A program made the position numbers and the translations under genes. From Phytopythium helicoides (Eukaryota; Oomycota; Peronosporomycetes; Pythiales; Pythiaceae), in NCBI GenBank assembly GCA_024867545.1, contig JANFNE010000022.1, positions 434,001 to 498,000 of the forward strand: a stretch of 64,000 nt of DNA, written 5' to 3'. Position 1 is the first letter of the stretch. Each line of letters starts with the position of its first letter. The notes under the pieces are model-generated. The model was not told the DNA's origin. It searched no databases and saw only the letters and a list, made by a program, of their open reading frames with translations. Of the stretch, positions 968-64,000 are shown one piece after another.

Positions 968-1072
968 GGGGGATTGCACACACGCTGGATCGATAAATAA
1001 AGATAGACCTGTCGTGGCGCGCTCCGTGGATAACGGCAAGTCACTGCCGAGCGCGGCAGACAGCCCAGCAGT
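968..1072. other. Short convergent intergenic gap
   Basis: About 105 bp separate the stop of the MERIT40-like gene (+) from the stop of E2F (-). It must hold both 3' UTRs. An AATAAA-like AAATAAA lies near 995-1001. Confidence 0.5.
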
Positions 1073-22324: not shown

Positions 22325-25300
22325 ATATCCTCTGCGCAAGACGCCTCGACCAAGGTCTCCATCGACAAGTTCAACGGAGACAACTACGCGACTTGGAGCC
22401 GCTACATGCGTGGCGTGTTCCTGACCAAGTCGACGTGGCATGTCGTGAACCGCGAGACGACTCCGAGCTTCACGGATCCGCGGGCCAAGGACGACTACGT
22501 CAAGGCAAGCAGCATCGCGTTCGGCTTGATGCTGCTCCACATGGACGCGGACTACCATCACGTGGTCGACGACTGTGAGGAAGCCTGGGTGGCGTGGGAG
22601 CGCTTGAAGACCCTCTACGGTGGATCGCAGAAGGCTGGTCGCATCTACTTGAAGCGACAGCTCTTCAGCATGGAGATGGCGGAAGGCGGCAATGTGTTGC
22701 ATCATTGCAATGAAGTCCTCAACATCAGCTCCAAGCTCAGCAGCATCGGCGCCAAGATGGAGGACGAAGATGTGGCGATCTGCTTGTTGCGCAGTCTCCC
22801 CAAGAGCTACGAGAACGTCGTGCTCAACTTGGAGATGAGCAACGCAGAGCTGCGGACGCGAGACGTTGTGAAGGTGCTCACGAATGAGCATATCAAGCGG
22901 CAAGGCGAGAAGACTCCGGCGATGAAGACTGAAGACGCGACCAAGGCGTTCAGTGTCGACCGAGAGCCTCGCCAGTGCACTTACTGCGGCAAGATGGGGC
23001 ACTTGGTTGACAAGTGCTGGACCAAGCAGAAGGACGAGAACCGAGGAGGTCCGAGACGCGGCGGCAATGGCCGTGGACGCGGGGCCAACAGCGCTCAGTG
23101 GAGGAACGACGACTACGACTACGACAACCAGCGAGTTGCGTTTGCGGTTTCCCTCGAGTGTGGAGTTTCGACGGGCGAGAAGATGCCCGGGATGTGGGCG
23201 GTCGACAGCGGCGCAACGCACCACATCTGCAACGACAAGACCAAGTTCGCCAGCCTGATTGAGCGAGACGACGGCGAACTATCGGTGGCCAACGGCAACA
23301 AGGCGGCAATCAAGGGTGTGGGAAGCATCTTCGAGCGAGTGCTTCTGCCCAACGGTGAAGAGCGCGAGATCGAGATCAAGGACGCGCTGTATGTCCCCGA
23401 CATGAGCAAGAATCTTCTATCGGTGCCGCAAATCAACAAGAGTGGCCAGTTCCAAGTGATCTTCGACGGCACCAAGATGCATGTTGCGCGCAAGGCTTCG
23501 AAGCAAGTGGTGGCGACGGCAGACCTCGTTGACGGACTCTACTGGCTTCGCACACCTCAGCGATCGGCTAACGCGGCAACCAGTGGAAGAGCTGTTGATC
23601 TGCACGCGCGTATGGGTCACGCTCCAGTTGAGGTGCTTTGCAAGATGGTCGACAACGAAATGATCAAGGACGCGAAGCTACCCTCCAGCTCGAGTGGACC
23701 AAGCGTGTGCCGCGGCTGTCAACAAGGAAAGATGGTCCAAAGGCCATTTCCAAGCAACCGTGACAAGCGCCACTACGACACGTTCGAGTTGCTCCACTTC
23801 GACATCTGCGGACCCAGGGAAGAAGACTCTCTGGGTGGAAGCAAGTATCTGCTGCTGATCGTCGACGAAGCCAGCGGATGCATGAAGGGATTCTGTCTGC
23901 GTGCCAAGTCGGAAAGCGAGGACTGCATCAAGACGTACATCACCAAGGTCCAGAACCAGTTCGGCAAGAAGGTCAAGTTCGTGCGTCATGATGGAGCGCG
24001 TGAGTTTGCCACCAACTCGCTCAAGGTGTTCTACGAAGACGAAGGCATCGAGCAGCAAACGACGGTTCCCTACGCGCACCAGACCAACGGCACAGCAGAG
24101 CGAGCCATCCGGACAATCGTCACGATCGGCCGCAGCATGCTCCACCACGCCAAGATGGACAAGATCTTCTGGGCTGAGGCAGCGATGACAGCCATCTACG
24201 TCAAGAATCGTCTACCGTCTCCCAAGTTCCAGCACAAGACTCCGTTCGAGATTCTGTACAAGTCCAAGCCAAGCGTGAAGCACATGCGTGTGTTTGGTTG
24301 TCGCGCTTACGTGCTGACTCCGAAAGAGAAGCGGCTCAAGTGGGACCCGAAGTCTCGTGCTGGGTTGTTCGTCGGATACGAGGAAGCGTCAAAGGCCTAT
24401 CGGGTTTATGACATCGAGGCGGGGCAGGTGGTTATCACTCGCGATGTCACCTTCGACGAATCGACTTTCGGCTTCTCGCCAGCGGCCTCCGATGAAGACG
24501 TGGAAGATCTCGCCTTCGACTCTCTCGAAATCGCTGAAGATGGACCAGGACAAACGGACTACACGCAGGCGGGGAAGCGCAAGAACCGATCGGCGACTGA
24601 AGATGACACTGCTGGAAGATCGCGGGCTGTTCGACACCGAGTTGGATTGGAAGAAGCAAGTGCGCCGCGCAGTTCTCCCTCGCGCCAAGAAGATGAAGAA
24701 GAAAAATCTGGTGACCGACACGATGGTTCGGACCCCTCGACTCCTCCTGTGTTTTGGCGAGCAAGCGCCAACGCTGTTGAAGCCTCCGACCTCTCCGAGC
24801 CAACAACATTCGAGGAAGCGGTGAACGGTCCGGATCAAGCTCACTGGCGCAAAGCGATTCGCGCGGAGCTGGAATCGATGCGACTTCGAGGTGTGTTTCG
24901 TGCGGCCAAGCTTCCAACGGGACAACGCGCCATCGGCACCAAGTGGGTTTTCAAGATCAAGCGAAAGGCTGACGGGTCCATCGAGAAGTACAAGGCACGC
25001 CTCGTGGCCAAGGGATTCAAGCAGAAGTACGGCATCGACTACACGGAAACGTTCTCGCCCGTGGTCAAGTACGCGACGCTGCGCATCGTGATCGCGCTCA
25101 TCGTCTTCTTCGGTTGGCAGCTCGATCAACTGGATGTGGTGACGGCATTCTTATACGGCGTGATGAAGGAGGTCGTGTACTGTGTGGTTCCTGAAGGCGT
25201 CGAGTTGGACGGCGGCTTTGACTGCCTTGAGCTGGTGAAGGCGATCTACGGCCTCAAGCAAGCTTCGCGTGTGTGGAACGAGACCTTCGACGAGTTCGTG

Positions 25301-26347
25301 TGCTCCATCGGCTTCCAAGTGTCAGCGTTCGACCCGTGTCTCTACATCAAGATTGTCAACGACCACTGCGTGCTCATCTTGGTCTACGTCGACGATGTTC
25401 TGGTGACGGGAAGCTCGATCGAGCTGATTGCACGCACCAAGTATGATCTGAAGATGCGCTTCGAGATGACCGACAGCGGCAAGTGTGCGTTCGTGCTCGG
25501 CATCGAGTTGGTCTATGGACCCGATGGAAGCATCACACTGTGCCAGCGACGCTACATCAACGACATCCTCACACGTTTCAACATGCTCCAGTGCAAGGCT
25601 GTGGTGAGTCCGGTCGACATGAGTTCGCGTCTGGTTCCAAGCGACGCATCTACCAAGGTGAACGCTCCGTTTCGGGAAGCGGTCGGCGCCTTGATGCATC
25701 TGATGACAGCGACTCGACCGGACATCGCGTATGGCGTGGGCTACGTATCGCGCTTCATGGAGAACCCGCAAGAGGAGCACTGGGTTGCGGTCAAGCGTAT
25801 CTTTCGCTACTTGCAAGGCACCAAGGACCACGGAATCTGCTTCAAGCCCGGCAACGTCATCGACTTTCGCGGCTACTCCGACGCCGACTGGGCTGGTGAC
25901 CTCGCTGATCGCAAGTCGACATCCGGCTACACCTTCATGTTGATGGGTGCCCCAGTCAGTTGGGGAAGCAAGAAGCAGTCAAGTGTGTCTCTGTCGACAA
26001 GCGAAGCGGAGTATATCGCGCTCAGCCTGGCCATCCAAGAAGGCAAGTGGATTCATCGCGTGGTTTGCGAGATCCTTGCGGCGGCGAACAAGTCGGGACC
26101 AGAGCTCATGATCCGCGAAGACAACCAGTCGTGCATCAAGATGACCAAGAACCCAGTCAACCACGGTCGCGCCAAGCACATCGACATCAAGTACCATCAC
26201 ATCCGCGACGTAGTCAAGCGTGGTGAAGTCAAGCTCGAGTACTGCGAGACTGCGACGATGCTGGCCGACATCATGACCAAGGCGCTCCCGGGACCTCGCC
26301 ACACGGAACTCACGGCGGCTCTCGGCATCCATGGGACTTCGCATTGA
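22310..26347 (+). CDS. Copia Gag-Pol polyprotein, intact, 1345 aa
   Basis: A single ORF without frameshift. Domains in order: copia-type Gag with [14 protein letters not shown] and ALKQ-like helices (residues 15-200); CCHC knuckle [14 protein letters not shown] (about 222-235); aspartic protease [12 protein letters not shown] (Asp at 299); GAG-pre-integrase HARMGH...CRGCQQGK (about 430-475); integrase with [14 protein letters not shown] and [10 protein letters not shown] (DD35E residues near 497, 557 and 594); reverse transcriptase with [44 protein letters not shown] and YVDDVLV (Y1026); RNase H with SDADWAGD and the ending [12 protein letters not shown]. Integrase before RT defines Ty1/copia. 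The first in-frame ATG is inside the PBS; the next methionine candidates would remove part of Gag. Confidence 0.96.
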
Positions 26348-26354
26348 GGGGGCG
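26344..26354 (+). other. Copia polypurine tract
   Basis: TTGAGGGGGCG immediately precedes the 3' LTR. Its purine core GAGGGGG overlaps the stop codon of Gag-Pol. This is the expected plus-strand primer site. Confidence 0.7.
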
Positions 26355-26721
26355 TGTTGAGGGCAGCCGGTTTGACCTGGACCGACTAGCCCGAGGCAGT
26401 CCAATGCGATCCCACGTTGATTACGCTCATCGATTACGCCAACTCGTGGGCACGAGATTGTGAGTACAAGATGGGATCCACGTGGCGCCCTCTGATTGGC
26501 TGCCGTGAATCAGTATCCAGGAAAAGATCAAGTAGAGTGAACCCAGTAAAGGACAGGCAGGCTTAGAGGTAGCAAGTAGTTGCGAACTAAGGACCTCAAT
26601 CAAATCACTTTCGAATCTTCCTTCTACCCCTCAAGTGGTCTTCGCTCCGGTCTTCTGTCCAAGTGAAGAACTCCCTCCGCTCCGTCCAAGCTTCGTGTCC
26701 AAGACCTCACTACCTCCAACA
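26355..26721 (+). repeat. Copia 3' LTR
   Basis: 367 bp, TGTTGAGG...CCAACA. Differs from the 5' LTR by three transitions. Confidence 0.97.
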
Positions 26722-29700: not shown

Positions 29701-32572
29701 CCCAAGGACCTCCATTTGGAGAACTCCAAGTGAGCGCGCGCGATGCGTCCGCGCGCGCAGATTGTAGTGGCATGTCTAGAGGTGTGGAAGCGACCACGTC
29801 CGACCATGTCATGTTGGACTCGTCACCCAAGGACCTCCATTTGGAGAACTCCAAGTGAGCGCGCGCGATGCGTCCGCGCGCGCAGATTGTAGTGGCATGT
29901 CTAGAGGTGTGGAAGCGACCACGTCCGACCATGTCATGTTGGACTCGTCACCCAAGGACCTCCATTTGGAGAACTCCAAGTGAGCGCGCGCGATGCGTCC
30001 GCGCGCGCAGATTGTGGTGGCATGTCTAGAGGTGTGGAAGCGACCACGTCCGACCATGTCATGTTGAACTCGTCACCCAAGGACCTCCATTTGGAGAACT
30101 CCAAGTGAGCGCGCGCGATGCGTCCGCGCGCGCAGATTGTAGTGGCATGTCTAGAGGTGTGGAAGCGACCACGTCCGACCATGTCATGTTGGACTCGTCA
30201 CCCAAGGACCTCCATTTGGAGAACTCCAAGTGAGCGCGCGCGATGCGTCCGCGCGCGCAGATTGTAGTGGCATGTCTAGAGGTGTGGAAGCGACCACGTC
30301 CGACCATGTCATGTTGGACTCGTCACCCAAGGACCTCCATTTGGAGAACTCCAAGTGAGCGCGCGCGATGCGTCCGCGCGCGCAGATTGTAGTGGCATGT
30401 CTAGAGGTGTGGAAGCGACCACGTCCGACCATGTCATGTTGGACTCGTCACCCAAGGACCTCCATTTGGAGAACTCCAAGTGAGCGCGCGCGATGCGTCC
30501 GCGCGCGCAGATTGTAGTGGCATGTCTAGAGGTGTGGAAGCGACCACGTCCGACCATGTCATGTTGGACTCGTCACCCAAGGACCTCCATTTGGAGAACT
30601 CCAAGTGAGCGCGCGCGATGCGTCCGCGCGCGCAGATTGTAGTGGCATGTCTAGAGGTGTGGAAGCGACCACGTCCGACCATGTCATGTTGGACTCGTCA
30701 CCCAAGGACCTCCATTTGGAGAACTCCAAGTGAGCGCGCGCGATGCGTCCGCGCGCGCAGATTGTAGTGGCATGTCTAGAGGTGTGGAAGCGACCACGTC
30801 CGACCATGTCATGTTGGACTCGTCACCCAAGGACCTCCATTTGGAGAACTCCAAGTGAGCGCGCGCGATGCGTCCGCGCGCGCAGATTGTAGTGGCATGT
30901 CTAGAGGTGTGGAAGCGACCACGTCCGACCATGTCATGTTGGACTCGTCACCCAAGGACCTCCATTTGGAGAACTCCAAGTGAGCGCGCGCGATGCGTCC
31001 GCGCGCGCAGATTGTAGTGGCATGTCTAGAGGTGTGGAAGCGACCACGTCCGACCATGTCATGTTGGACTCGTCACCCAAGGACCTCCATTTGGAGAACT
31101 CCAAGTGAGCGCGCGCGATGCGTCCGCGCGCGCAGATTGTAGTGGCATGTCTAGAGGTGTGGAAGCGACCACGTCCGACCATGTCATGTTGGACTCGTCA
31201 CCCAAGGACCTCCATTTGGAGAACTCCAAGTGAGCGCGCGCGATGCGTCCGCGCGCGCAGATTGTAGTGGCATGTCTAGAGGTGTGGAAGCGACCACGTC
31301 CGACCATGTCATGTTGGACTCGTCACCCAAGGACCTCCATTTGGAGAACTCCAAGTGAGCGCGCGCGATGCGTCCGCGCGCGCAGATTGTAGTGGCATGT
31401 CTAGAGGTGTGGAAGCGACCACGTCCGACCATGTCATGTTGGACTCGTCACCCAAGGACCTCCATTTGGAGAACTCCAAGTGAGCGCGCGCGATGCGTCC
31501 GCGCGCGCAGATTGTAGTGGCATGTCTAGAGGTGTGGAAGCGACCACGTCCGACCATGTCATGTTGGACTCGTCACCCAAGGACCTCCATTTGGAGAACT
31601 CCAAGTGAGCGCGCGCGATGCGTCCGCGCGCGCAGATTGTAGTGGCATGTCTAGAGGTGTGGAAGCGACCACGTCCGACCATGTCATGTTGGACTCGTCA
31701 CCCAAGGACCTCCATTTGGAGAACTCCAAGTGAGCGCGCGCGATGCGTCCGCGCGCGCAGATTGTAGTGGCATGTCTAGAGGTGTGGAAGCGACCACGTC
31801 CGACCATGTCATGTTGGACTCGTCACCCAAGGACCTCCATTTGGAGAACTCCAAGTGAGCGCGCGCGATGCGTCCGCGCGCGCAGATTGTAGTGGCATGT
31901 CTAGAGGTGTGGAAGCGACCACGTCCGACCATGTCATGTTGGACTCGTCACCCAAGGACCTCCATTTGGAGAACTCCAAGTGAGCGCGCGCGATGCGTCC
32001 GCGCGCGCAGATTGTAGTGGCATGTCTAGAGGTGTGGAAGCGACCACGTCCGACCATGTCATGTTGGACTCGTCACCCAAGGACCTCCATTTGGAGAACT
32101 CCAAGTGAGCGCGCGCGATGCGTCCGCGCGCGCAGATTGTAGTGGCATGTCTAGAGGTGTGGAAGCGACCACGTCCGACCATGTCATGTTGGACTCGTCA
32201 CCCAAGGACCTCCATTTGGAGAACTCCAAGTGAGCGCGCGCGATGCGTCCGCGCGCGCAGATTGTAGTGGCATGTCTAGAGGTGTGGAAGCGACCACGTC
32301 CGACCATGTCATGTTGGACTCGTCACCCAAGGACCTCCATTTGGAGAACTCCAAGTGAGCGCGCGCGATGCGTCCGCGCGCGCAGATTGTAGTGGCATGT
32401 CTAGAGGTGTGGAAGCGACCACGTCCGACCATGTCATGTTGGACTCGTCACCCAAGGACCTCCATTTGGAGAACTCCAAGTGAGCGCGCGCGATGCGTCC
32501 GCGCGCGCAGATTGTAGTGGCATGTCTAGAGGTGTGGAAGCGACCACGTCCGACCATGTCATGTTGGACTCG
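26722..32572 (+). repeat. 125-bp satellite array, segment A (about 47 copies)
   Basis: Head-to-tail copies of one 125-bp unit: AACTCCAAGTGAGC, an alternating-CG palindrome GCGCGCGCG/ATGCGTC/CGCGCGCGC, AGATTGTAGTGGCATG, TCTAGAGGTGTGGAAGC, GACCACGTCCGACCATGTC, ATGTTGGACTCGTCACCC and AAGGACCTCCATTTGGAG. All units here are 125 bp. Copies are nearly identical. Variants (GATGTGTCC for GATGCGTCC, GTGG for GTAG, one CCATTAGG near 28,215, one TTGAACTCG near 30,065) concentrate in the left half; units from about 30.2 kb rightwards are almost invariant. The segment ends where the gypsy LTR begins. Confidence 0.98.
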
Positions 32573-32863
32573 TGTAACGGGCCTAAAGCCCGCTACGATA
32601 CTTGCACGTTGCTCGAAGGAAGCAAATTCAACTCTGTTTCATTATCGGCGGGAGGCGGAGGCCTCCCGACCACTAAATCCCTAAAGTGGCTCGTGATTGG
32701 CTGAATGTGGGTTGCGTCCCAAATATCAGCCAATCAGAGCGAGGTACGTCGACGCGTGTCTACGCGGTGACACGCGTCACATATCCTACCTACATATGCA
32801 ATAAAACGGTAGATGCTAGCTACATATGTAATATGGAAAGTGTGCGGGGAGCGCCCCGCTACA
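32573..32863 (-). repeat. Gypsy 3' LTR (adjacent to the antisense ORF)
   Basis: 291 bp bounded by TGTAAC and GCTACA. Contains a perfect inverted pair of CCAAT boxes, TGATTGGCTGA (32694-32704) and TCAGCCAATCA (32726-32736), a 10-bp stem hairpin GACGCGTGTC/GACACGCGTC (32751-32778) and an AATAAAA (32810-32816) on the plus strand. Confidence 0.96.
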
Positions 32864-32878
32864 CCACCCCCCTCTCAA
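32864..32878 (-). other. Gypsy polypurine tract
   Basis: On the minus strand the bases just before the 3' LTR read TTGAGAGGGGGGTGG, the expected plus-strand primer for reverse transcription. Confidence 0.8.
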
Positions 32879-32905
32879 GATCGCGCTCACTCCTTGAGCG
32901 CGCAG

Positions 32906-32962
32906 ATGATGTTCCCGAAGAAGAAGCGACAAGGCGCGGCGCGCACGCCGCGCCACTCGTAG
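32906..32962 (+). other. 18-codon leader ORF with a nuclear-localisation-like motif, in frame with the antisense ORF
   Basis: ATG ATG at 32906-32911 starts a short frame containing PKKKRQ, ending at TAG 32960-32962. The following codons are CAA CAG, and 14 codons later the ATG of the antisense ORF lies in the same frame. The leader could be an upstream ORF, or an N-terminal part used by stop readthrough or splicing. Translation is unproven. Confidence 0.35.
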
Positions 32963-33004
32963 CAACAGCCACAACCAGATCTGCTAGACCAGGCACAGCA
33001 CGTG

Positions 33005-34915
33005 ATGGAAGAGCTCGAAGACAAGGCGCCGGCGCCGAGCGCCGGCTCCAGCGAGACCCCAGCTTCTGAGGCAGGAGCAACTACACCCGGAACGCCTGCG
33101 GCTGCTTTGAGCACACCAAGCAGCACTGCACGGTCGGCGGCAATGAACGCACCAACGGCGTCAGCGAGTTCAGCATCAGCGTCGGCGCCGCGCTCCGCGG
33201 CGCCACGGTCTTCAATGGCTCCGATGTTGACGGGCAACTCACGGGGCTCAACAGACTCCTCGCTTCACACCACAGCGACAGCATCGGCAACTCGGACGTC
33301 GGCGCCGCACACAGCGGCGCCCCACAGTTTGACGTCTGCGACGGCGACGACGGATCCAGTGACTCATGGAACCATGGTTTCAACAATCTCAAGCGTCGGA
33401 ACAAGTGCTCTGCGGGCCGCGGTACCGCCGGCGCCGCATTTCGCGGCGCCACAAGCTCGGACGTCGACCGCAAGTGTGGCGCGGCCCATTGAGGCCGCGC
33501 CGACTCTCTTCGCTGGCGCAATCATGGGTTCATCAGCCCCTCCACGCGGGCACTTTCTCGACCCGAATATCAGGCCGTGGAGACTGTACGACCTGTCCGG
33601 CGCCGACGCACCAGACACCTTGGACGCCATGGTGAACTTCTGGCACCGCATGCGAGCCCTGCGCGGCAAGGCGACCGACTCGAACGACGTATACGCGCTG
33701 GAGTATTCATGGTGCGCGTTCGTGCGGCGCTGGAACGCGTGCCGCGAGGCTGGAGAGCGCTTTGTCGACTGGCTCGAGCTCGAGGAAGACCGTCGACAGC
33801 TGCGGTCGCTGGGCGCGCTCCGCGAGCGCGTCTGTGAGTTAGCGTGGAACGAGGACCGCCTCTGCCTCGTCCGCATCAACGAATATTGCCGGTACTGCAC
33901 ACGAGGTGGCGCGCGTCACACGCGCGCCGACTGGGACACACAAGTTGCAGAGCGCCCGCTTGGACCACGTCAGCGAGAGTGGGTTGGGCGCTACGAGCGC
34001 GCTCTATGGGAACATCGGGATGCCGCTAGGCGCGGCGGGTCGGCCCGCACACGCAGCCCCGCAAGGACTGAGCGTGGCCGCAGCCGGGAGCGCGAGTCGG
34101 ATCATGATCGCGCCAGTCACTCATCGCGTGCTCAGTTGCGCGGTTCTTCCCCTCGACACTGGATTGGGGCGCGGGTCCGAGACCCGCGCCAACTTGACCG
34201 CCGCCACCAGCGGCGCTCTCGCTCTCTGTCTCCTGAGCGTGTCGGACATGAGGGACCGCGACGCTCGCGGTCTCGATCTCAGTCGCCTCGTCGCGGGGTG
34301 ATCTGGTCGCTGACGGAGGCATATCGCGGTTCACCATCTCCGCCAACAACACGTTCATCACGGCGCCGTCAAGTCGAGGTTCCTCATGATTGGAATCATA
34401 GTCGCGAACCATATCCGGCACGTCGCGACGAAGGTTCTCGCGCGGCTCCCATGTATCGCTATCAGGCGGATAGCCAAGCCACCGCACACGATATCGGCGC
34501 CGCGCAGGCGCGGCGCCACGACCACGTCGACTGGGGGCGCGAACAGGGGCGGGGTCTTCGTGATCAACAATACGCTCCACAATCCAGTGACGCTCACCCG
34601 TGGAGTCAACGAGCGGTGGCGGGGCATCGCGACGGAACTGCTGTTGTTGTGCAAGGGGCGCCGCGTTACGCGGCGCCATCGTGGGAGCAGCTCGTCGCTG
34701 CTGAGTCTGAACAGGCGACGAACGTCGCGGACGAAGCTCGCGACGTTGCTGGCGAGGCCCGGTCTCTTGCGGGACGGGCGGATGCTGCTGCGGCGAGTGC
34801 GCGTCAGTCTGCGGAAGAGTTGCGCGTCCGTGTTCGACTCCTTGAGCAGCGCTTTCATGGGCGAGTGATGTCGGCGGAGGAGATCCGCCGGCTTGAGGGC
34901 TCGAAGAAACCGTAG
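33005..34915 (+). CDS. Antisense ORF of the gypsy element (637-codon frame), unknown function
   Basis: Encoded opposite to gag-pol. The ATG at 33005 lies 141 bp inside the element. Bases 33005-34025 do not overlap pol; 34026-34915 overlap pol antisense. Regions: residues 1-175 Ala/Ser/Thr/Pro-rich, low complexity; 180-340 a Trp- and Cys-containing helical domain (FLDPNIRPWRLYDLSG, LDAMVNFWHRMRALRG, SWCAFVRRWNACREAGERFV, RINEYCRYCTRGG, WVGRYERALWEHRD); 354-440 an Arg/Ser-rich segment with RSRSLSPE and RSRSRSQSPRRG; 563-630 a predicted coiled coil (EQATNVADEARDVAGEARSL, ELRVRVRLLEQRF). In the overlap its first codon bases face pol first codon bases. I recognise no family. Antisense ORFs are known in plant Tat/Ogre-type gypsy elements and in HTLV-1, so the layout has precedent. 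An upstream in-frame ATG is separated from it by one TAG. Confidence 0.7.
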   Translation: MEELEDKAPAPSAGSSETPASEAGATTPGTPAAALSTPSSTARSAAMNAPTASASSASASAPRSAAPRSSMAPMLTGNSRGSTDSSLHTTATASATRTSAPHTAAPHSLTSATATTDPVTHGTMVSTISSVGTSALRAAVPPAPHFAAPQARTSTASVARPIEAAPTLFAGAIMGSSAPPRGHFLDPNIRPWRLYDLSGADAPDTLDAMVNFWHRMRALRGKATDSNDVYALEYSWCAFVRRWNACREAGERFVDWLELEEDRRQLRSLGALRERVCELAWNEDRLCLVRINEYCRYCTRGGARHTRADWDTQVAERPLGPRQREWVGRYERALWEHRDAARRGGSARTRSPARTERGRSRERESDHDRASHSSRAQLRGSSPRHWIGARVRDPRQLDRRHQRRSRSLSPERVGHEGPRRSRSRSQSPRRGVIWSLTEAYRGSPSPPTTRSSRRRQVEVPHDWNHSREPYPARRDEGSRAAPMYRYQADSQATAHDIGAAQARRHDHVDWGREQGRGLRDQQYAPQSSDAHPWSQRAVAGHRDGTAVVVQGAPRYAAPSWEQLVAAESEQATNVADEARDVAGEARSLAGRADAAAASARQSAEELRVRVRLLEQRFHGRVMSAEEIRRLEGSKKP

Positions 34916-37900
34916 CATCCGGTATGATAGCCGGGTGGTAGGGTTTGAGGCGCCCGACGTAGAACGTTGGGTGCAAGCGCATCGTGGTTGGAATGTCGAG
35001 CGTGTATGCGTCACCGATGACCTTCTTGACCGTAAAAGGACCAATATATCGTGGCGCGAGCTTGCTCGCGCCGAGGTTCGTAACAGACGCATTCTTGATG
35101 CCTTCGCTCGATAGCAACACACGGTCTCCAACACCAAACACGTAGTTGTTCTTGCGGCCGCGTTTGTCGGCGGCCGCCTTCTGCTTGTCTGCTGCATCTT
35201 GCAGTGCATCACGAACAAAGCGTACGATTGCTTGGCGTCGGGAGATGAAGTCTAACGCTGCTCTCTCATCTGCTGGTTTCACTGGGGGCTTCGGGGCGTA
35301 GTTACCCGCGTTGGGCGCCGCGGTCGACGCGGCGCCGGGGTCAATCAAGGTTCTCGTCGCCCACCTAGCGAGGGCACCACTATCACCAACCGGCGAAACA
35401 GTAGCAGAGTGCGCGAGGGAGTTGACGGTTGCGGGTTGGGCCGCGTGTGGCGCCAACGCATCGACACTCTGAGGTCCATCATTATCGACTCCTCCCCCAC
35501 CAAGAGTGGAGAATGGTGCCGCGGGGAGTCCCGCGGCTAGAAGAGCGGGTACTCGTGGGTGCCGAGCGTTGTTGACGAAGAAGGGGGACATGCCAGTCGA
35601 TGCATGAACTGCGTTGTTGATCGCAAACTCAGCCGTTGGGAGGAAGTCGCTCCATGAAGCAAAGGACGTGGCGTAACTGCGAAGCACGTCTTCAAGCACG
35701 CGGTTGACACGTTCAGTTTGGCCGTCAGTCTCGGGGTGTGCAGCAGTCGACATCATCAATCGTGTCCCAAGTACCTCAAACAAGTGGCGCCAAAATGCCG
35801 CGACGAATCGGGTATCTCGATCGGACACGATAGACTCTGGAAGACCATGATGACGGAAGACGCTGTCGAGAAAAAGAGCAGCGCAGTCTTCAGCCGTGAC
35901 ACTCACACTCACTGGGGCAAGATGTACCATCTTGCTGAATCGGTCAACGAAGACGAGGATGCCCGTACGACCGCGGGCGTCAGCTGGGAGACCAAAGATA
36001 AAGTCCATGCTGACTGAGCGCCAGGCATCACTTGGAATGGGAAGGGGACGCAACGGCGCTTGAGACGACGGTGAAGGCTTGACTCGTTGGCAGATTTCAC
36101 ACGTGCGCACCCACTTGCGAACCCACTTGTACTGGTGTGGCCAGTAGTAATCCCGCGAGAGGGCCGCGAATGTCTTCTCGCGACCCAGATGACCACCCAC
36201 AGGCGCGTCGTGATACTCGTGTATCAAGCGAGCTCGGAGGTCGCTGTCGTTTGGAACAACGACTCGAGGGGCATCAAAGCGGTCGATGCTGTACAACAGA
36301 AGGCTATCAGCAAGCGTATAGCGACCAAGTTTTGAGACCAAGTGGCGCGGGAGCTCCTCCCGCGCATCGTCTGTGGGTGTGTGGAGATACTTCACCAAAG
36401 CCTTTAACTCAAGGTCCTCTTCATACGCATCGGAAATTGTCCGACGCAAAGATGGTGTGACGGAAGTCTCCATTGCATGGAGATTCTCGGCGGCACAAGC
36501 AGCACACTCCTCATCGTCGGGATCTCGATTGTCAGCTCCGTGTCCAAGATCGCGCCGAGGGTCGTAATCTGGGCGCCTTGAGAGTGCGTCGGCAAGGATG
36601 TTCGACTTTCCTGGCTTATAATGCACCACGAAGTTGTACTCAGAGAAGAATGAGAGCCAGCGGGCCATGCGCTGGCTCAGATGCGGGCTCTTCACTGCCG
36701 TTCTCAACGATGCATGATCTGTGTAGATCGCGAACGTCTTCTCACCGAGCAAGTGTACGCGGAACTTGACCAGCGCGTACCTCATTGCGAGGAGTTCCTT
36801 ATCATGGACCGGATAGTTCTTCTCGGCCGGCTTCAATTGGCGCGACTGATAGCTGATCACGCGCTCTCGGCCCTCCCCATCGAATTGCATCAGCGCACAA
36901 CCGATTGCAAAGTCGCTCGCGTCACACACAACATGGAAGGGGCGTGATTCGTCAGGGAGCGCGAGGATCGGTGCTGAAGTGAGGCTCCTCTTGACAGAAT
37001 CGAATGCATCTTGATGTTCCTGACGCCACGACCATGTGGTGTCCTTCTTCAGCAGCGATGAAAGTGGCTGGATCAGTGCGGCATAATTACGCGTGTACTT
37101 GTGAAGGTAATTCGCGAGACCAAGCCACTGCCGCAACTCTGTCTGATTCTTCGGGGCTGGCCAAGCACAAATGGACTTCACTTTCTCCGGATCAGCGCGG
37201 ACGCCGTCCGCGCTCACGTAACATCCAAGCACCGGAATCTCCGGCGCGCAGAAGATACACTTCTTCAAGTTGGCGTAGAGCTTGTGCTTGCGCATGACCT
37301 CGAATAGCTTGCGGAGGTGCTGAAGATGCACTTCCACGTCCGACCGACCGCTGACGGAGCGGCTGTGCACGAAGATATCGTCGAAGTAACTTGGCGCAAA
37401 GTCTCGGAGCGGCCGTAACAAGTGTGAAACCATCCGGTTGAAGGTAGCAGGGGCGTTCTTAAGCCCCTGCGGCATCACGAGCCACTCCCACAACATCCCG
37501 CTTGGTGTGCTCACTGCCGTTAGAGGGACATCCTGCTCGCGCATCAGCAGCTGATAAAAGCCATCGCGCAGATCGATCGCACTGAAAATCGTGCTCCCTG
37601 ACATGGCGTCCAGCACCATGTCTTTTCTCGGGATCGGCGTCTGGGCAGGGATGGTGGCGTCGTTTAGCTTGTTGAAAGCGTGGACGATGCGCCAACCTCC
37701 CGTTGCCTTCTTCACGCAGAAGGTCGGACTGGAATGTGGAGACACGCTCTCACGTACGTGACCCGCCTTGTGGCGGGCCTCAAAGAACTCGTCGATCGCC
37801 TTGACTTGTTCACGTGGAAGTGGCCACTGTCGAGTGACACAGTACTTCGTCCCAGGCGCGAGATCGATCTCGTGCCGCACACCGCGGTCAACTGGAAGCT

Positions 37901-39560
37901 CGGCTGGGATCTCATCAGGGAAGATGTCCGAGAATTCGCGGACAAGTTTGTACACCGGGTTGCCTGAGGTCCTCAAGGCCTCCCAAGATTGCGCGACGTA
38001 GCGCTCTTCGCGCGCCGATTTCTGTTCGGCGCGCTTCGGTCTCTCAATACCGGGGCGGTCATCCTCAACCAAGTCGGTGGCCGCAACGTCGGCCGTCATC
38101 CTCTCGGCAACAACAGCACACACTTGTTCCACATCCCCTTTCTTCAGATCGTGGAGAAACCTTTTCCACGACATCGCCGGCAGCGATATGATTGTTGTTG
38201 CTTCGCGAGGCGGATTGTCGACTTGGATGGCGCGCGCGCTCATTGCTGCGTCACCATCATACTCCAACACTTGAAGGAGCTTCACATCATCGTCCGCGCG
38301 CACATTGCTGCGCGGACCTCGCACGGCGCGTTTGCGTCGTTTCTTCAGGCGCTCGGAGCCACTGCTCTCAAGCGAGACATCGGACGTCATGTCCGAGCCA
38401 CTCATTCTATCCGGGAACACTGGTTGTTGCTCGACCGGGGCTCGCTCGACCGGTGGCGCCACGTGCTGCTCGACCGGGACTCTTTCAAACGGCGGCGCCA
38501 TGTATTGCTGCTCGACCGTGTACATCTCAACCGGCGGCGCCACATGCTGCCTTGCCGGGGCTCCCTCAAACGGCGGCGCCACGTATTGCTGCTCGACCGT
38601 ATGCATCTCAGCCGGTGGCGCCACGTGCTGCCTGACCGGGGCTCTCTCGAACGGTGGCGCCACATCTTGCTGCTCGACCGTATACATCTCGACCGGTGGC
38701 GCCACATGCTGCCTATCCGGGAGGCTCTGGTGCGGGAGACTCAGATACTCGACCGCCTTCATCTTTGCTTCGCGCGGGAGCCCCACATGCTCAACCGCCG
38801 TACTCTTCATAACGCGCGGGAGCCTCGCGTGCTCAACCGCTGCTGACATCATCTCGGGGCGCGGAGCCACGCTCCGCGCCATCACTGGCGCTTCAAGCTG
38901 CCTCGTTGTCTCATGGCCGACGTGTCCCCAGGAAGCCTGGGTGCAGACTTCACAAAGAGGGCCATCGCTCGCTCGTTGGGAAGAATGAGTCGTGGATCTG
39001 GAATCCACGACGACAACATGAGGCCAGTCTCGGGGCGCGACCAGGAGGTGTGTGTAGACCTCGCTGACGTCAAAGTCGCCCCGGCGCTTCGCTGACCGGC
39101 TGAGCCAGTCGATCTCGGGCTGGTAGCGCGCCAGCCATGGCATCCCGAGAATGCAGTCAAAGGCGTAGTTCATCTCGATGATCAAGAACTCGTCAAGACT
39201 GCAGAAGCCGTCGAACTCGTACGACAACTTCACCGTGCGCCGCGGGGTTGCCCGTGGCTTGCCGTCTGCTAGCTTGACAACCATCTCGCCTGGACCCTCT
39301 TGAACGCGAAGGTTGGCTGGAAGCTCAGGCAGACATGAGGCGCGAAGGAAGTTATTCGTCGCGCCGGAGTCAAGGAGGGCGCGCAGCGGACGGCGCGCGC
39401 CAGCGACGTGCAGGCTTACAATGATCAGCCTTGAGTCGCCGCTGGACGTGGTGGCATTGAATTGTGCGTGAAGCACAGGGGCGTCGGATGATCGGGCTGC
39501 CACCGGACCCGGATCAACCTCGATGCCAGTAGGGCGCCCCGCCCCTACTGGTCCTGATCG
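34026..39560 (-). CDS. Gypsy Pol (protease, RT, RNase H, integrase, chromodomain), expressed by -1 frameshift
   Basis: Open from the slippery site (39560) to the stop at 34028-34026, about 1840 codons. The only early start-like codon is a GTG at 39503, so expression as a Gag-Pol fusion is expected. Numbering from that codon: aspartic protease LLDSGATNNF (D45); a 250-residue repetitive spacer; RT with VKKATGGWRIVHAFNKLN and YFDDIFVHS (about 705); RNase H HVVCDASDFAIGCAL and YTDHASL; integrase zinc domain (HLGREKTFAAL...CEICQRVKPS, about 1100-1150); catalytic MDFIFGLP, SDRDTRF and ETDGQTERVN; a GPY-like YIGPFTVKKVIGDAYTLDIP; a Pro/Gln/Arg-rich linker; and a C-terminal chromodomain (ERHWIVERIVDHED...YRVRWLGYPPDSDTWEPREN). 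The chromodomain probably steers integration to methylated-histone chromatin, which fits its place in a satellite. Confidence 0.95.
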   Translation of the reverse strand, partial: RSGPVGAGRPTGIEVDPGPVAARSSDAPVLHAQFNATTSSGDSRLIIVSLHVAGARRPLRALLDSGATNNFLRASCLPELPANLRVQEGPGEMVVKLADGKPRATPRRTVKLSYEFDGFCSLDEFLIIEMNYAFDCILGMPWLARYQPEIDWLSRSAKRRGDFDVSEVYTHLLVAPRDWPHVVVVDSRSTTHSSQRASDGPLCEVCTQASWGHVGHETTRQLEAPVMARSVAPRPEMMSAAVEHARLPRVMKSTAVEHVGLPREAKMKAVEYLSLPHQSLPDRQHVAPPVEMYTVEQQDVAPPFERAPVRQHVAPPAEMHTVEQQYVAPPFEGAPARQHVAPPVEMYTVEQQYMAPPFERVPVEQHVAPPVERAPVEQQPVFPDRMSGSDMTSDVSLESSGSERLKKRRKRAVRGPRSNVRADDDVKLLQVLEYDGDAAMSARAIQVDNPPREATTIISLPAMSWKRFLHDLKKGDVEQVCAVVAERMTADVAATDLVEDDRPGIERPKRAEQKSAREERYVAQSWEALRTSGNPVYKLVREFSDIFPDEIPAELPVDRGVRHEIDLAPGTKYCVTRQWPLPREQVKAIDEFFEARHKAGHVRESVSPHSSPTFCVKKATGGWRIVHAFNKLNDATIPAQTPIPRKDMVLDAMSGSTIFSAIDLRDGFYQLLMREQDVPLTAVSTPSGMLWEWLVMPQGLKNAPATFNRMVSHLLRPLRDFAPSYFDDIFVHSRSVSGRSDVEVHLQHLRKLFEVMRKHKLYANLKKCIFCAPEIPVLGCYVSADGVRADPEKVKSICAWPAPKNQTELRQWLGLANYLHKYTRNYAALIQPLSSLLKKDTTWSWRQEHQDAFDSVKRSLTSAPILALPDESRPFHVVCDASDFAIGCALMQFDGEGRERVISYQSRQLKPAEKNYPVHDKELLAMRYALVKFRVHLLGEKTFAIYTDHASLRTAVKSPHLSQRMARWLSFFSEYNFVVHYKPGKSNILADALSRRPDYDPRRDLGHGADNRDPDDEECAACAAENLHAMETSVTPSLRRTISDAYEEDLELKALVKYLHTPTDDAREELPRHLVSKLGRYTLADSLLLYSIDRFDAPRVVVPNDSDLRARLIHEYHDAPVGGHLGREKTFAALSRDYYWPHQYKWVRKWVRTCEICQRVKPSPSSQAPLRPLPIPSDAWRSVSMDFIFGLPADARGRTGILVFVDRFSKMVHLAPVSVSVTAEDCAALFLDSVFRHHGLPESIVSDRDTRFVAAFWRHLFEVLGTRLMMSTAAHPETDGQTERVNRVLEDVLRSYATSFASWSDFLPTAEFAINNAVHASTGMSPFFVNNARHPRVPALLAAGLPAAPFSTLGGGGVDNDGPQSVDALAPHAAQPATVNSLAHSATVSPVGDSGALARWATRTLIDPGAASTAAPNAGNYAPKPPVKPADERAALDFISRRQAIVRFVRDALQDAADKQKAAADKRGRKNNYVFGVGDRVLLSSEGIKNASVTNLGASKLAPRYIGPFTVKKVIGDAYTLDIPTTMRLHPTFYVGRLKPYHPAIIPDATVSSSPQAGGSPPPTSLAHESAAQGVEHGRATLPQTDAHSPQQHPPVPQETGPRQQRRELRPRRSSPVQTQQRRAAPTMAPRNAAPLAQQQQFRRDAPPPLVDSTGERHWIVERIVDHEDPAPVRAPSRRGRGAAPARRRYRVRWLGYPPDSDTWEPRENLRRDVPDMVRDYDSNHEEPRLDGAVMNVLLAEMVNRDMPPSATRSPRDEATEIETASVAVPHVRHAQETESESAAGGGGQVGAGLGPAPQSSVEGKNRATEHAMSDWRDHDPTRAPGCGHAQSLRGCVCGPTRRA
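38410..38720 (-). repeat. Tandem repeat in the protease-RT spacer of Pol
   Basis: About five imperfect repeats of some 30 codons each split into two half-motifs: QHVAPPVEMYTVEQQ and YVAPPFERAPV. They lie between the protease and the RT, where gypsy elements normally have a short linker. Repeats are preserved at DNA and protein level, so the copy number probably varies between elements. Confidence 0.85.
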
Positions 39561-39566
39561 TTTTTT
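39526..39566 (-). promoter_or_regulatory. -1 programmed ribosomal frameshift signal between gag and pol
   Basis: On the minus strand the gag frame reads TCA AAA AAC, so A AAA AAC (39566-39560) is a canonical X XXY YYZ slippery heptamer in the correct phase. After an 8-nt spacer (GATCAGGA) comes a perfect 9-bp stem CCAGTAGGG/CCCTACTGG with an 8-nt GC loop (39551-39526). The gag stop TAG (39547-39545) lies in the 5' arm. The -1 frame entered here is open through all of pol. Confidence 0.9.
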
Positions 39567-40567
39567 GACGCCCCGGATGGCTCGGCGGCGGACTTGTCCG
39601 CCGCCTCAACACTCGCGAGAACGGGCGCAGGTGCGCGGCACTCCGCCGCACGATGACCAGGCTTCTGACAGCGGAAGCAGGTCAGTTGACTAAGGCCGCG
39701 ACCACCGCGGCCACCACGACCTCGGCCGCGACCACGACCGGCGGGAGACCCTCTTGGATAGGATGTTGCGATCGCGTCGATCTCCATCGGCTCGGGTGCA
39801 CTCACCCGAGCCTCAGCCGACAGCGGCTTCGCGTATGACGACGCAACCATGTAGTCCTCGCGTAACGCGAGGGCAAACGCCTCTTCAAGGGTCTTGGGCT
39901 CGGCGCGAACTAGGCAATAGCGAGTCATTCCCTCGCGCATACCGAATATGAAGACGTGGACTTGAGTGGCCATGTCAACTGGGTTCGCGACGATGCACGA
40001 TACCAAGTGTCGTGCGTGTTGTACGTAGTCGCGCATTGACATCTTGCCTTGCTTGAGAGCGAAGAAGGATGCGCGCATGCGCGACTCGTCTTGGGGCGGC
40101 TCGAACGCGAGCCGCAGGTCGTCTTGAAGTGCCTTGAGCGTAGGGAACGCACCCTCGTCGGTGACAAGCTTGCCGAGGGCCCATTCCTTGGCCTTGCCCG
40201 ACAGACGCGAGAGCAGGAAGCTCACTCGCGCTGTCTCGGACGCGAGCTGTCTCGCGTCCATCGCGATTGCGACTTCGCGGAACCAGCGGTTCAGGGGGAG
40301 TCGGTCTTGACCGACTCCAGAGTACAGGGTAGTGTCAATCTTGACAATCTCATTCTTGACTTGGGACGCGGGAGTTGAGATAGCACGCTGCCTGTCAGCG
40401 TGCTCGCGTCCGAGAAACTCATGGATGGCTATGCGCTGGTCCTCCGGCGTCGCTGATCGCAGCAGCGACGCCACAAATGACTCTCCGGAGGCCGCGGCAA
40501 CTCGGTGTAGCGTGGCCCACTCGAACGCTGTCAAGTGGGGGAACCCCTCATGGGTAAGCTTCTCCAT
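39545..40567 (-). CDS. Gypsy Gag, 340 aa
   Basis: Starts at ATG 40567, 36 bp after the 5' LTR, and ends at TAG 39545. Residues 95-230 match the retrotransposon gag domain (LPLNRWFREVAIAMDARQL, FLLSRLSGKAKEWALGKL, LKQGKMSMRDYVQHARHLV). They are followed by a Gly/Arg-rich tract (GRGRGRGGRGGRG) and one CCHC knuckle CFRCQKPGHRAAEC. It forms the particle and binds RNA. The last codons carry the -1 frameshift signal leading into Pol. Confidence 0.95.
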   Translation of the reverse strand: MEKLTHEGFPHLTAFEWATLHRVAAASGESFVASLLRSATPEDQRIAIHEFLGREHADRQRAISTPASQVKNEIVKIDTTLYSGVGQDRLPLNRWFREVAIAMDARQLASETARVSFLLSRLSGKAKEWALGKLVTDEGAFPTLKALQDDLRLAFEPPQDESRMRASFFALKQGKMSMRDYVQHARHLVSCIVANPVDMATQVHVFIFGMREGMTRYCLVRAEPKTLEEAFALALREDYMVASSYAKPLSAEARVSAPEPMEIDAIATSYPRGSPAGRGRGRGRGGRGGRGLSQLTCFRCQKPGHRAAECRAPAPVLASVEAADKSAAEPSGASKNDQDQ

Positions 40568-40582
40568 CTTGGTCGTTGGAAG

Positions 40583-40602
40583 GACTACGAAGTGCTACCA
40601 GG
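40583..40602 (-). other. Gypsy primer-binding site
   Basis: Two bases after the 5' LTR (minus strand) the sequence reads TGGTAGCACTTCGTAGTC. TGG pairs with a tRNA CCA end, as in the usual 3'-end priming mode; the tRNA would end in ...GUGCUACCA. I cannot name the tRNA from the sequence alone. Confidence 0.6.
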
Positions 40603-40893
40603 TGTAACGTGCCTAAAGCCCGCTACGATACTTGCACGTTGCTCGAAGGAAGCAAATTCAACTCTGTTTCATTATCGGCGGGAGGCGGAGGCCTCCCGAC
40701 CACTAAATCCCTAAAGTGGCTCGTGATTGGCTGAATGTGGGTTGCGTCCCAAATATCAGCCAATCAGAGCGAGGTACGTCGACGCGTGTCTACGCGGTGA
40801 CACGCGTCACATATCCTACCTACATATGCAATAAAACGGTAGATGCTAGCTACATATGTAATATGGAAAGTGTGCGGGGAGCGCCCCGCTACA
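40603..40893 (-). repeat. Gypsy 5' LTR
   Basis: 291 bp, identical to the 3' LTR except for one base (T at 40,610). Flanked on its outer side by the TSD ACTCG. Confidence 0.96.
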
Positions 40894-62319: not shown

Positions 62320-62686
62320 TGTTGGAGGTAGTGAGGTCTTGGACACGAAGCTTGGACGGAGCGGAGGGAGTTCTTCACTTGGACAGAAGACCGGAGCGAA
62401 GACCACTTGAGGGGTAGAAGGAAGATTCGAAAGTGATTTGATTGAGGTCCTTAGTTCGCAACTACTTGCTACCTCTAAGCCTGCCTGTCCTTTACTGGGT
62501 TCACTCTACTTGATCTTTTCCTGGATGCTGATTCACGGCAGCCAATCAGAGGGCGCCACGTGGATCCCATCTTGTACTCACAATCTCGTACCCACGAGTT
62601 GACGTAATCGATGAGCGTAATCAACGTGGGATCGCATTGGACTGCCTCGGGCTAGTCGGTCCAGGTCAAACCGGCTGCCCTCAACA
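62320..62686 (-). repeat. Copia copy 2 3' LTR
   Basis: 367 bp, same length and ends as copy 1, with a few substitutions (for example GGATGCTG versus GGATACTG near 62,523). Confidence 0.95.
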
Positions 62687-62693
62687 CGCCCCC

Positions 62694-64000
62694 TCAATGC
62701 GAAGTCCCATGGATGCCGAGAGCCGCCGTGAGTTCCGTGTGGCGAGGTCCCGGTAGCGCCTTGGTCATGATGTCGGCCAGCATCGTCGCAGTCTCGCAGT
62801 ACTCGAGCTTGACTTCACCACGCTTGACTACGTCGCGGATGTGATGGTACTTGATGTCGATGTGCTTGGCGCGACCGTGGTTGACCGGGTTCTTGGTCAT
62901 CTTGATGCACGACTGGTTGTCTTCGCGGATCATGAGCTCTGGTCCCGATGTGTTCGCAGCCGCAAGGATCTCGCAAACCACGCGATGAATCCACTTGCCT
63001 TCTTGGATGGCTAGGCTGAGCGCGATGTACTCCGCTTCGCTTGTCGACAGAGACACACTTGACTGCTTCTTGCTTCCCCAACTGACCGGCGCGCCCATCA
63101 GCATGAAGGTGTAGCCGGATGTCGACTTGCGATCAGCGAGGTCACCAGCCCAGTCGGCGTCGGAGTAGCCGCGAAAGTCGATGACGTTGCCGGGCTTGAA
63201 GCAGATTCCGTGGTCCTTGGTGCCTTGCAAGTAGCGAAAGATACGCTTGACCGCAACCCAATGCTCCTCTTGCGGGTTCTCCATGAAGCGCGATACGTAG
63301 CCCACGGCGTACGCGATGTCCGGTCGAGTCGCTGTCATCAGATGCATCAAGGCGCCGACCGCTTCCCGAAACGGAGCGTTCACCTTGGTAGATGCGTCGC
63401 TTGGAACCAGACGCGAACTCATGTCGACCGGACTCACCACAGCCTTGCACTGGAGCATGTTGAAGCGTGTGAGGATGTCGTTGATGTAGCGTCGCTGGCA
63501 CAGTGTGATGCTTCCATCGGGTCCATAGACCAACTCGATGCCGAGCACGAACGCACACTTGCCGCTGTCGGTCATCTCGAAGCGCATCTTCAGGTCATAC
63601 TTGGTGCGTGTAATCAGCTCGATTGAGCTTCCCGTCACCAGAACATCGTCGACGTAGACCAAGATAAGCACGCAGTGGTCGTTGACGATCTTGATGTAGA
63701 GACACGGGTCAAACGCTGACACTTGGAAGCCGATGGAGCACACAAACTCGTCGAAGGTCTCGTTCCACACACGCGAAGCTTGCTTGAGGCCGTAGATCGC
63801 CTTCACCAGCTCAAGGCAGTCAAAGCCGCCGTCCAACTCGACGCCTTCTGGAACCACACAGTACACGACCTCCTTCATCACGCCGTATAAGAATGCCGTC
63901 ACCACGTCCAGTTGATCGAGGTGCCAACCAAAGAAGACGATGAGCGCGATCACGATGCGCAGCGTCGCGTACTTGACCACGGGCGAGAACGTTTCCGTGT
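62694..64000 (-). CDS. Copia Gag-Pol, C-terminal part (RT and RNase H), partial
   Basis: Open from the window edge to the stop at 62696-62694. The visible 435 codons correspond to copy 1 from [12 protein letters not shown] to the end, with YVDDVLV and SDADWAGD present. Only a handful of amino-acid changes are seen versus copy 1 (for example WHLDQLD/WQLDQLD, ELITRT/ELIART, IAYAVG/IAYGVG, AANTSG/AANKSG). No stop or frameshift in the visible part, so this copy may also be active. Confidence 0.95.
   Translation of the reverse strand, partial: TETFSPVVKYATLRIVIALIVFFGWHLDQLDVVTAFLYGVMKEVVYCVVPEGVELDGGFDCLELVKAIYGLKQASRVWNETFDEFVCSIGFQVSAFDPCLYIKIVNDHCVLILVYVDDVLVTGSSIELITRTKYDLKMRFEMTDSGKCAFVLGIELVYGPDGSITLCQRRYINDILTRFNMLQCKAVVSPVDMSSRLVPSDASTKVNAPFREAVGALMHLMTATRPDIAYAVGYVSRFMENPQEEHWVAVKRIFRYLQGTKDHGICFKPGNVIDFRGYSDADWAGDLADRKSTSGYTFMLMGAPVSWGSKKQSSVSLSTSEAEYIALSLAIQEGKWIHRVVCEILAAANTSGPELMIREDNQSCIKMTKNPVNHGRAKHIDIKYHHIRDVVKRGEVKLEYCETATMLADIMTKALPGPRHTELTAALGIHGTSH

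Follow-up and report, generated by a model that had tools for sequence, protein, structure and literature searches.

The chromodomain Ty3/gypsy retrotransposon in the window analysed here carries short perfect hairpins along its whole length, and comparisons among its copies make us highly confident that the stems are under selection for folding. Within this genome the excess is characteristic of a single gypsy clade. Each hairpin is a short foldback, and folding capacity has been retained rather than any particular sequence or place. On balance it is probable that the hairpins are a selected property of this one clade, exercised through folding of both strands or of a DNA strand, with the purpose left open.

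The window, a stretch of 64,000 nucleotides (C16:434001-498000) from a genome of 49 Mb, contains an array of a 125-bp satellite from about 26.6 to 62 kb, and the element, here called W, is inserted inside it; other loci from the same genome carry L numbers. The sense strand of W is the minus strand. Its near-identical LTRs are flanked by an ACTCG duplication (borders read by eye), with the 3' LTR at 32572..32863 and the 5' LTR at 40602..40893, both on the minus strand; at an offset of 8030 they are identical over 32581-32863, with one mismatch at 32580, and the match ends at 32571. The gag ORF (39545..40567, minus strand, 340 aa) has Ty3_capsid, Retrotrans_gag and CCHC zinc knuckle matches. 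The pol ORF (34026..39503, minus strand, 1825 aa), whose open frame extends back to 39605, encodes an aspartyl protease, RT, RNase H, an integrase zinc-binding domain, SH3_Tf2-1 and a chromodomain. The rve core scores 31.3 bits, slightly below the Pfam cut-off of 32.6, and the integrase zinc-binding domain is well above its own. By its LTRs, its gag and the pol order protease-RT-RNase H-integrase-chromodomain, W is a Ty3/gypsy chromodomain LTR retrotransposon. On the opposite, plus strand an ORF of 637 aa (33002..34915) overlaps the 3' end of pol.

Hairpins were defined as perfect inverted repeats with a loop of 3-10 nt and were counted without overlap. Between 32751 and 40472 there are 44, 35, 23 and 5 stems of at least 7, 8, 9 and 10 bp, respectively, and none of 11 bp; dinucleotide shuffles of the same sequence gave means of 5.0, 1.5, 0.4 and 0.1, and shuffling within 300-base blocks gave similar results. 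The sequence-only reading, which had listed 32 perfect hairpins along the gypsy element and estimated that one or two would arise by chance, is thus borne out, as is its impression that eight lie in gag, where the recount places 9 of the 44 wholly inside the gene. Its proposed check by codon shuffling also came out in its favour: in two kinds of synonymous shuffle that keep the protein and the codon use (300 each), stems of at least 8 bp numbered 0.3-0.6 against 7 observed in gag and 1.3-2.2 against 18 in pol. The array extends beyond the span first described, over both LTRs, and with these included the stem lengths of W peak at 8-9 bp (16, 9, 14, 18 and 6 stems of 6, 7, 8, 9 and 10 bp).

The 38 hairpins of W with stems of 8-10 bp and loops of 3-10 nt span 32649..40808. 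Two lie in the 3' LTR (32649-32668 and 32751-32778) and two in the 5' LTR (40679-40698 and 40781-40808). The others are at 32882-32902, 32933-32954, 33028-33046, 33184-33204, 33301-33321, 33430-33450, 33478-33501, 33908-33928, 34168-34190, 34254-34272, 34496-34517, 34657-34677, 34721-34747, 35053-35072, 35154-35177, 35314-35336, 35518-35537, 35917-35935, 36345-36365, 36654-36678, 37194-37214, 37447-37470, 38010-38034, 38292-38317, 38858-38880, 38989-39011, 39526-39551, 39584-39605, 39789-39812, 40096-40115, 40238-40259, 40297-40318, 40382-40404 and 40446-40472. Stems of 7 bp occur at 33101-33124, 33814-33830, 34872-34890, 36467-36483, 37600-37622, 38149-38171, 39378-39401, 39694-39712 and 39856-39872. 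The hairpins at 39526-39551 and 39584-39605 fall in the overlap of the gag and pol open frames, and a role in frameshifting is possible for these putative structures. There are 6.7-8.8 stems of at least 7 bp per kb in gag, in the antisense-ORF region and in the 3' LTR; the remainder of pol has 3.4-3.6 per kb, in agreement with the earlier remark that they are rarer in the RT/integrase core; gag, which is distant from the antisense ORF, is as hairpin-dense as the antisense ORF itself.

The type of repeat and the loop sizes both point to folding. Repeats of 8 bp in W comprise 38 inverted, 1 mirror, 8 direct and 9 complement repeats. Enrichment is 3.0-fold at loops of 0-2 nt, 10.9-fold at 3-5 and 8.3-fold at 6-10, and falls to 1.2-fold at 11-20, 2.1-fold at 21-40 and 1.4-fold beyond, which is the profile of something folding back. 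The profiles of L031 and L033 resemble that of W, and L030 and L026 keep 2.4-fold and 1.8-fold enrichment at loops of 11-20. Sites for a dimeric DNA-binding protein do not describe the array, given the lower enrichment of W at spacers of 0-2 than at 3-5 and the lack of a single half-site among its hairpins; the same spacer test in L030 gave 6.1-fold at 0-2 vs 11.5-fold at 3-5. In the hairpins listed above the arms differ in sequence from one to the next and the loop sequences are varied. The outermost stem pair differs by family: of the W stems of at least 6 bp, 41 of 63 have a 5' arm that begins with G, and in L033 58 of 72 have one that begins with C.

Chance, base composition, codon use or an assembly artefact could be thought of in an element as G+C-rich as W (0.608). 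The dinucleotide, local and synonymous shuffles and the repeat-type controls all fail to reproduce the excess, which moreover recurs in independent copies on other contigs, and we give this explanation practically no weight.

For the evolution of the stems, copies were compared with a matched expectation, computed at sites outside hairpins that share codon position and trinucleotide. In stems of at least 8 bp, W differs from L031 by 35 changes among 647 sites (96.5 expected) and from L032 by 35 changes among 409 sites (114.7 expected), a substitution rate of 0.31-0.36 of the matched rate. Third positions of codons and noncoding sequence show the greatest deficit: in pol third positions 9 changes were observed vs 25.6 expected against L031 and 7 vs 31.4 against L032, and at noncoding stem sites 9 vs 44.4 and 7 vs 39.1. 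The loops of the long stems changed faster than expected, by 1.4-1.5-fold (45 vs 29.1 for L031 and 41 vs 28.7 for L032). Conservation is uneven in W stems of 5-7 bp, with ratios of 0.58-0.75 for L031 and 0.77-1.25 for L032. A second family gave a similar picture. Between L030 and L071, which are 96% alike, stems of at least 7 bp show 7 changes vs 16.6 expected in one direction and 2 vs 14.9 in the other, and 5-bp stems 3 vs 23.7 and 8 vs 26.9, with loops exceeding expectation; stems of 6 bp show no deficit in one direction (16 vs 16.8) and 5 vs 14.6 in the other. Between families, as judged from L030 and L026 (67% alike), stem conservation is absent, with ratios of 0.78-1.1, and therefore hairpin positions turn over. 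L001 and L004 likewise show none, the stem rate of 0.371 being close to that of the flanks, 0.351.

These comparisons also bear on how the hairpins arise. At 66 aligned hairpin places inspected by eye, most gains and losses come down to one substitution, in one arm or the other, and pairing-preserving double changes between W and L031 are few (2-3 pairs). The sequence-only reading had taken the stems to be unlike in sequence and not copies of one inserted palindrome, and this is upheld by the differing arms and by alignments that show substitutions and few gaps; nor do the two arms diverge independently in close relatives, the outcome that it had said would refute it. Inserted palindromes are ruled out for W, L031 and L032, in which the hairpins align; the gaps seen by eye are a stretch absent from W at alignment column 5461 and one absent from L031 and L032 at column 7618.

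Near-palindromes might also be perfected without selection, if reverse transcription kept switching templates or copying one arm onto the other; such a mutational origin could be expected to restrict the array to retroelements and to make its pairing strand-symmetric and strictly Watson-Crick. Unbiased copying between arms would, however, leave the substitution rate unslowed, yet the stems are 3-fold slow; the two-sided changes that keep pairing are few in W against L031, most gains and losses being the single substitutions just described, and 30 copia loci of the same genome lack the array. Template-switch repair, put forward by the sequence-only reading as one possible cause, is thus not favoured, given single substitutions in both arms and the lowered stem rate, and we consider such an origin very unlikely.

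Selection on folding itself was addressed with a placement test, in which the observed substitutions were reassigned at random to sites matched for base and codon position, with refolding of the resulting sequence. Real copies retain far more folding than the simulated ones, with z between -5.6 and -7.9 across three tests, which cover two families: L030>L071 gave -7.2 on the sense and -7.9 on the antisense strand, L071>L030 -7.4 and -7.8, and W>L031 -5.6 and -6.6. Three of four copia pairs show no fold-keeping effect (+1.9/+2.2, +1.3/+2.0 and +1.3/+1.1); the fourth, L039>L041, is mildly hairpin-enriched and gave -1.3/-2.1. A weakly hairpinned gypsy pair, L007>L025, gave -1.0/-1.0 with 78 substitutions. 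Relative to order-shuffled sequence, the folding energy of the sense strand is -3.0 kcal/mol per 100 nt in W and -9.0 in L030, compared with +0.2 in a host stretch and -1.2 to +0.9 in copia.

The excess is not spread evenly over the retroelements of the genome. L031, L032 and L033, which are closely related to W, equal or nearly equal it in hairpin richness. Stems in the L026-L029 and L030 families are shorter and more numerous, with 35 and 61 of at least 6 bp in 3.9 kb, respectively, vs 7-8 expected, all within the open pol frame; L070, a copy from the L030 family, has 63 such stems vs 11.5-13.8 in synonymous shuffles. The L005-L025 family is weak, having 14-17 stems of at least 6 bp vs about 7, and its member L009 has 49 stems at 5 bp vs 25.6-32.1 in synonymous shuffles. 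In a midpoint-rooted RT-RNase H tree, in which some sequences are partial, the hairpin families form one clade, L064 comes next and the others are more distant. Four of the six more distant gypsy loci (L064, L067, L068 and L069) have no excess at 6 bp, L066 has a mild one (24 vs 10.8 at 6 bp), and L065 has 18 vs 11.9 at 6 bp and 5 vs 0.8 at 8 bp, with two of its five 8-bp stems lying past its pol frame.

The sequence-only reading had seen nothing comparable in copia, and this generalises: in 28 of 30 copia loci z is below 2 at stems of at least 6 bp, the exceptions being L039 (2.9) and L041 (2.1). Copia stems of at least 8 bp number 30 in 110 kb, in 15 of the 30 loci, and at least 11 of these 30 lie in the flanks and are copies of one or other of three satellite hairpins. 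Because the copia and distant gypsy loci are mostly without it, the excess belongs, so far as the sampled loci go, neither to the region nor to the host. The 30 copia loci and the first 21.9 kb of the window (2 stems of at least 8 bp vs 2.9 expected) are without excess, which speaks against a genome-wide or local mutational habit. As a separate observation, W-like hairpin clusters stand beside copia at L052:1-400 and L047:3560, one hairpin being nearly the same as one in the gag of W, which suggests that these clusters are adjacent or fragmentary elements of the gypsy clade.

Which molecule folds can be approached through wobble pairs. A G-U pair on one strand corresponds to an A-C mismatch on the complementary strand, and RNA should tolerate G-U. 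Hairpin pairing is almost strictly Watson-Crick, and a sense-strand preference for G-U is absent. Summed over W, L033, L030, L026, L009 and L066 (L031, 85% like W, was omitted), stems of at least 7 bp with exactly one wobble number 53 vs 38.6 expected when read on the sense strand and 87 vs 40.3 on the antisense strand, and sense stems of at least 6 bp number 112 vs about 111; perfect stems in W are about 9-fold enriched. In conserved stems, changed pairs on the sense strand comprise 25 G-U and 41 A-C. If G-U were tolerated twice as well, 25 or fewer of 66 would have p 2e-6, counted over both directions of two pairs, which are not fully independent. From the near-strict Watson-Crick pairing, where a G-U on one strand is an A-C on the other, we infer that both strands, or a DNA strand, must fold.

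Thermodynamic parameters for DNA also describe the retained folding better than those for RNA. In the W>L031 placement they gave -8.8/-9.1 vs -5.6/-6.2 at 40 nt and -8.6/-10.2 vs -7.0/-6.8 at 120 nt, and in L030>L071 they were slightly stronger. Sense RNA as the sole selected molecule is disfavoured because of this better fit and the balance of G-U and A-C changes; of the earlier suggestion that structured genomic RNA is selected, selection on structure is thus strongly supported and the sense RNA as its only target is not. The remaining suggestion of the sequence-only reading, small-RNA or packaging signals, is a possibility. Selection could act on the sense genomic RNA by way of packaging signals, dimer sites or genome-scale ordered RNA structure, and this would be in keeping with a genome-wide folding excess, foldable loop sizes and conserved stems with free loops; the genomic RNA of yeast Ty3 is reported to have a well-folded core (PMC11381356). 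In view of one-wobble sense stems near chance, the absence of a G-U surplus among changed pairs and the variable size and sequence of the loops, we regard it as distinctly unlikely.

In the main competing explanation, selection acts on first-strand (minus) cDNA in its single-stranded form, or on cruciform-forming DNA, and the hairpins compact or protect the cDNA while it is reverse-transcribed or mark the DNA. The advantage of DNA parameters in both families tested, clearest in W>L031, is in its favour, and so is the bias of one-wobble stems of at least 7 bp towards the antisense strand (87 vs 53, binomial p 0.005). The folding excess is also slightly greater on the antisense strand in 9 of 9 sequences from the gypsy clade or L066, although these are not independent of each other. 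The tilt is weaker elsewhere (p 0.06 at stems of at least 6 bp, and also for changed pairs), L031 alone gives 16 antisense vs 14 sense stems and 25 vs 34 at 6 bp, and the difference between strands in W>L031 is within 1 s.d. and inconsistent in sign. We also know of no reason why the cDNA of only this clade should need hairpins, which counts against the explanation. The data tilt weakly to the antisense strand, and that strand is both first-strand cDNA and antisense transcript. We judge this explanation possible, with the odds against it.

The second half of the W antisense protein is arginine-serine-rich. Related ORFs occupy the same place in L031 (738-2675, plus strand) and L032 (7192-9129, minus strand), both of 645 aa, and in L033 (1222-2775, plus strand), of 517 aa. 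Outside the pol overlap, dN/dS of the W ORF is 0.31 against L031 and 0.30 against L032, and over its codons 150-341 it is 0.24 and 0.23; against the distant L033 it is 0.43, with dS saturated. These ratios indicate purifying selection on the predicted gene where it was measured. Neither the W nor the L033 antisense protein has a Pfam match at E up to 1, TRP28 (PF04195) included, and that of L072 has one chance-level match. Homologues of the W protein occur in Phytophthora oleae and P. capsici, in keeping with an oomycete host. In the L030 family another antisense ORF is present, open across all 1.8 kb of the L072 sequence (2-1798, minus strand) and present as an 864-codon frame in 8 of 21 matches. 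Like the ORF of W, those of L031, L032, L033 and L072 are arginine-serine-rich. Four matches to the L030-family ORF, at 27% identity and E 2e-5 to 3e-3, lie antisense and downstream of L026-type pol; three of their frames are intact, with 781 codons, and one of 738 has two stops. Homology between the W and L030 antisense proteins was not detectable. In L064, L065 and L066 no antisense ORF of at least 230 codons follows pol in 0.8-1.9 kb of flank. Strong hairpins and an antisense ORF thus occur together in four families (W, L033, L030 and L026), and the three loci just named have no such ORF in the flank; such a pattern, drawn from few independent families, is suggestive of a link between strong hairpins and an antisense gene.

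Sense and antisense transcripts, if the element produces both, could anneal to give long double-stranded RNA, and self-folding of both would slow this pairing and hence small-RNA silencing. That the hairpins limit sense-antisense pairing and silencing, given a putative antisense transcript, is the purpose we prefer, and we offer it tentatively. In PMC3804510, retrotransposons of Phytophthora are described as sources of 24-30-nt small RNAs, and inverted repeats in P. infestans are said to yield small RNAs potently; the latter result counts against a protective role unless stems of 9 bp are too short for dicing. The high hairpin density of gag, at a distance from the antisense ORF, and the unrelated antisense proteins of the W and L030 families also count against the proposal. 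Taken further, these might be ambisense LTR retrotransposons, with gag-pol on one strand and a conserved protein on the other, in which Watson-Crick hairpins keep both transcripts folded, with a hairpin size and density that have become characteristic of each family. Slowed formation of double-stranded RNA would then let an element with overlapping genes on two strands live in an RNA-silencing host. We regard this wider proposal as speculative, and doubtful as a whole.

By analogy, the closest known kind would seem to be genome-scale ordered RNA structure. In persistent RNA viruses this is a folding excess across coding and noncoding sequence, beyond cis-acting sites. The W clade is like it in that the folding excess is spread over the genome and in that positions turn over and the property persists. 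It is unlike it in being an LTR retrotransposon with short perfect hairpins of a family-typical stem length and in the near-strict Watson-Crick, strand-symmetric pairing. Folding energies below those of shuffled controls and, from hairpin counts, independence of protein and codons are found in both, and folding of the genomic RNA with tolerated G-U was not found on the sense strand. The W clade may work like genome-scale ordered RNA structure, and we do not call it one because the sense G-U preference is absent.

Among retrotransposons, yeast Ty3 is also a Ty3/gypsy element with structured genomic RNA; in the abstract of PMC11381356 it is reported to have a folded core and short 5' dimerisation palindromes, not an array of dozens. 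The plant elements Retand, Grande and RIRE2 have long antisense ORFs between pol and the 3' LTR (PMC11963269), in the same place as in W. All three differ from W in belonging to plants, Retand is a non-chromovirus, and their antisense ORFs mostly carry a TRP28 domain, which the Pfam search did not find in W; the word hairpin is absent from that paper. Chronos and its kin are, like W, oomycete Ty3/gypsy elements, some with chromodomains, and the terms antisense, hairpin and palindrome are absent from the accessible text of PMC5348765. In the open-licence PMC literature we found neither such hairpin arrays nor selection on whole-element folding in LTR retrotransposons.

The selection described here acts over a whole LTR retrotransposon and eliminates roughly two in three substitutions in stems. 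With families that vary in hairpin size and density, and unaffected copia in the same genome, the role of folding in a retroelement becomes directly testable, be it in packaging, reverse transcription or silencing. The link to an antisense gene, if true, would offer a new explanation of how genes that overlap on opposite strands escape silencing.

Several observations concern LTR ends and genomic surroundings. On the sense strand, the LTR region of L033 has perfect hairpins of 10 and 11 bp in both copies, and one that starts with TGTAAC is a candidate for the LTR end. The satellite array of the window is bordered by oppositely oriented copia copies at 25041-26721 and 62320-64000. Judged by eye, the hairpin-rich gypsy clade and the copia family are also neighbours on contigs C28, C46, C64, C75, C47 and C21, an arrangement that recalls a centromere-like region. 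The 125-bp satellite unit, of which there are 971 exact copies genome-wide, has a 9-bp perfect hairpin of its own with a 7-nt loop. Two further satellite variants beside copia, in the flanks of L043, L045, L053 and L055, have a hairpin of 8-10 bp, again with a 7-nt loop and of other sequence.
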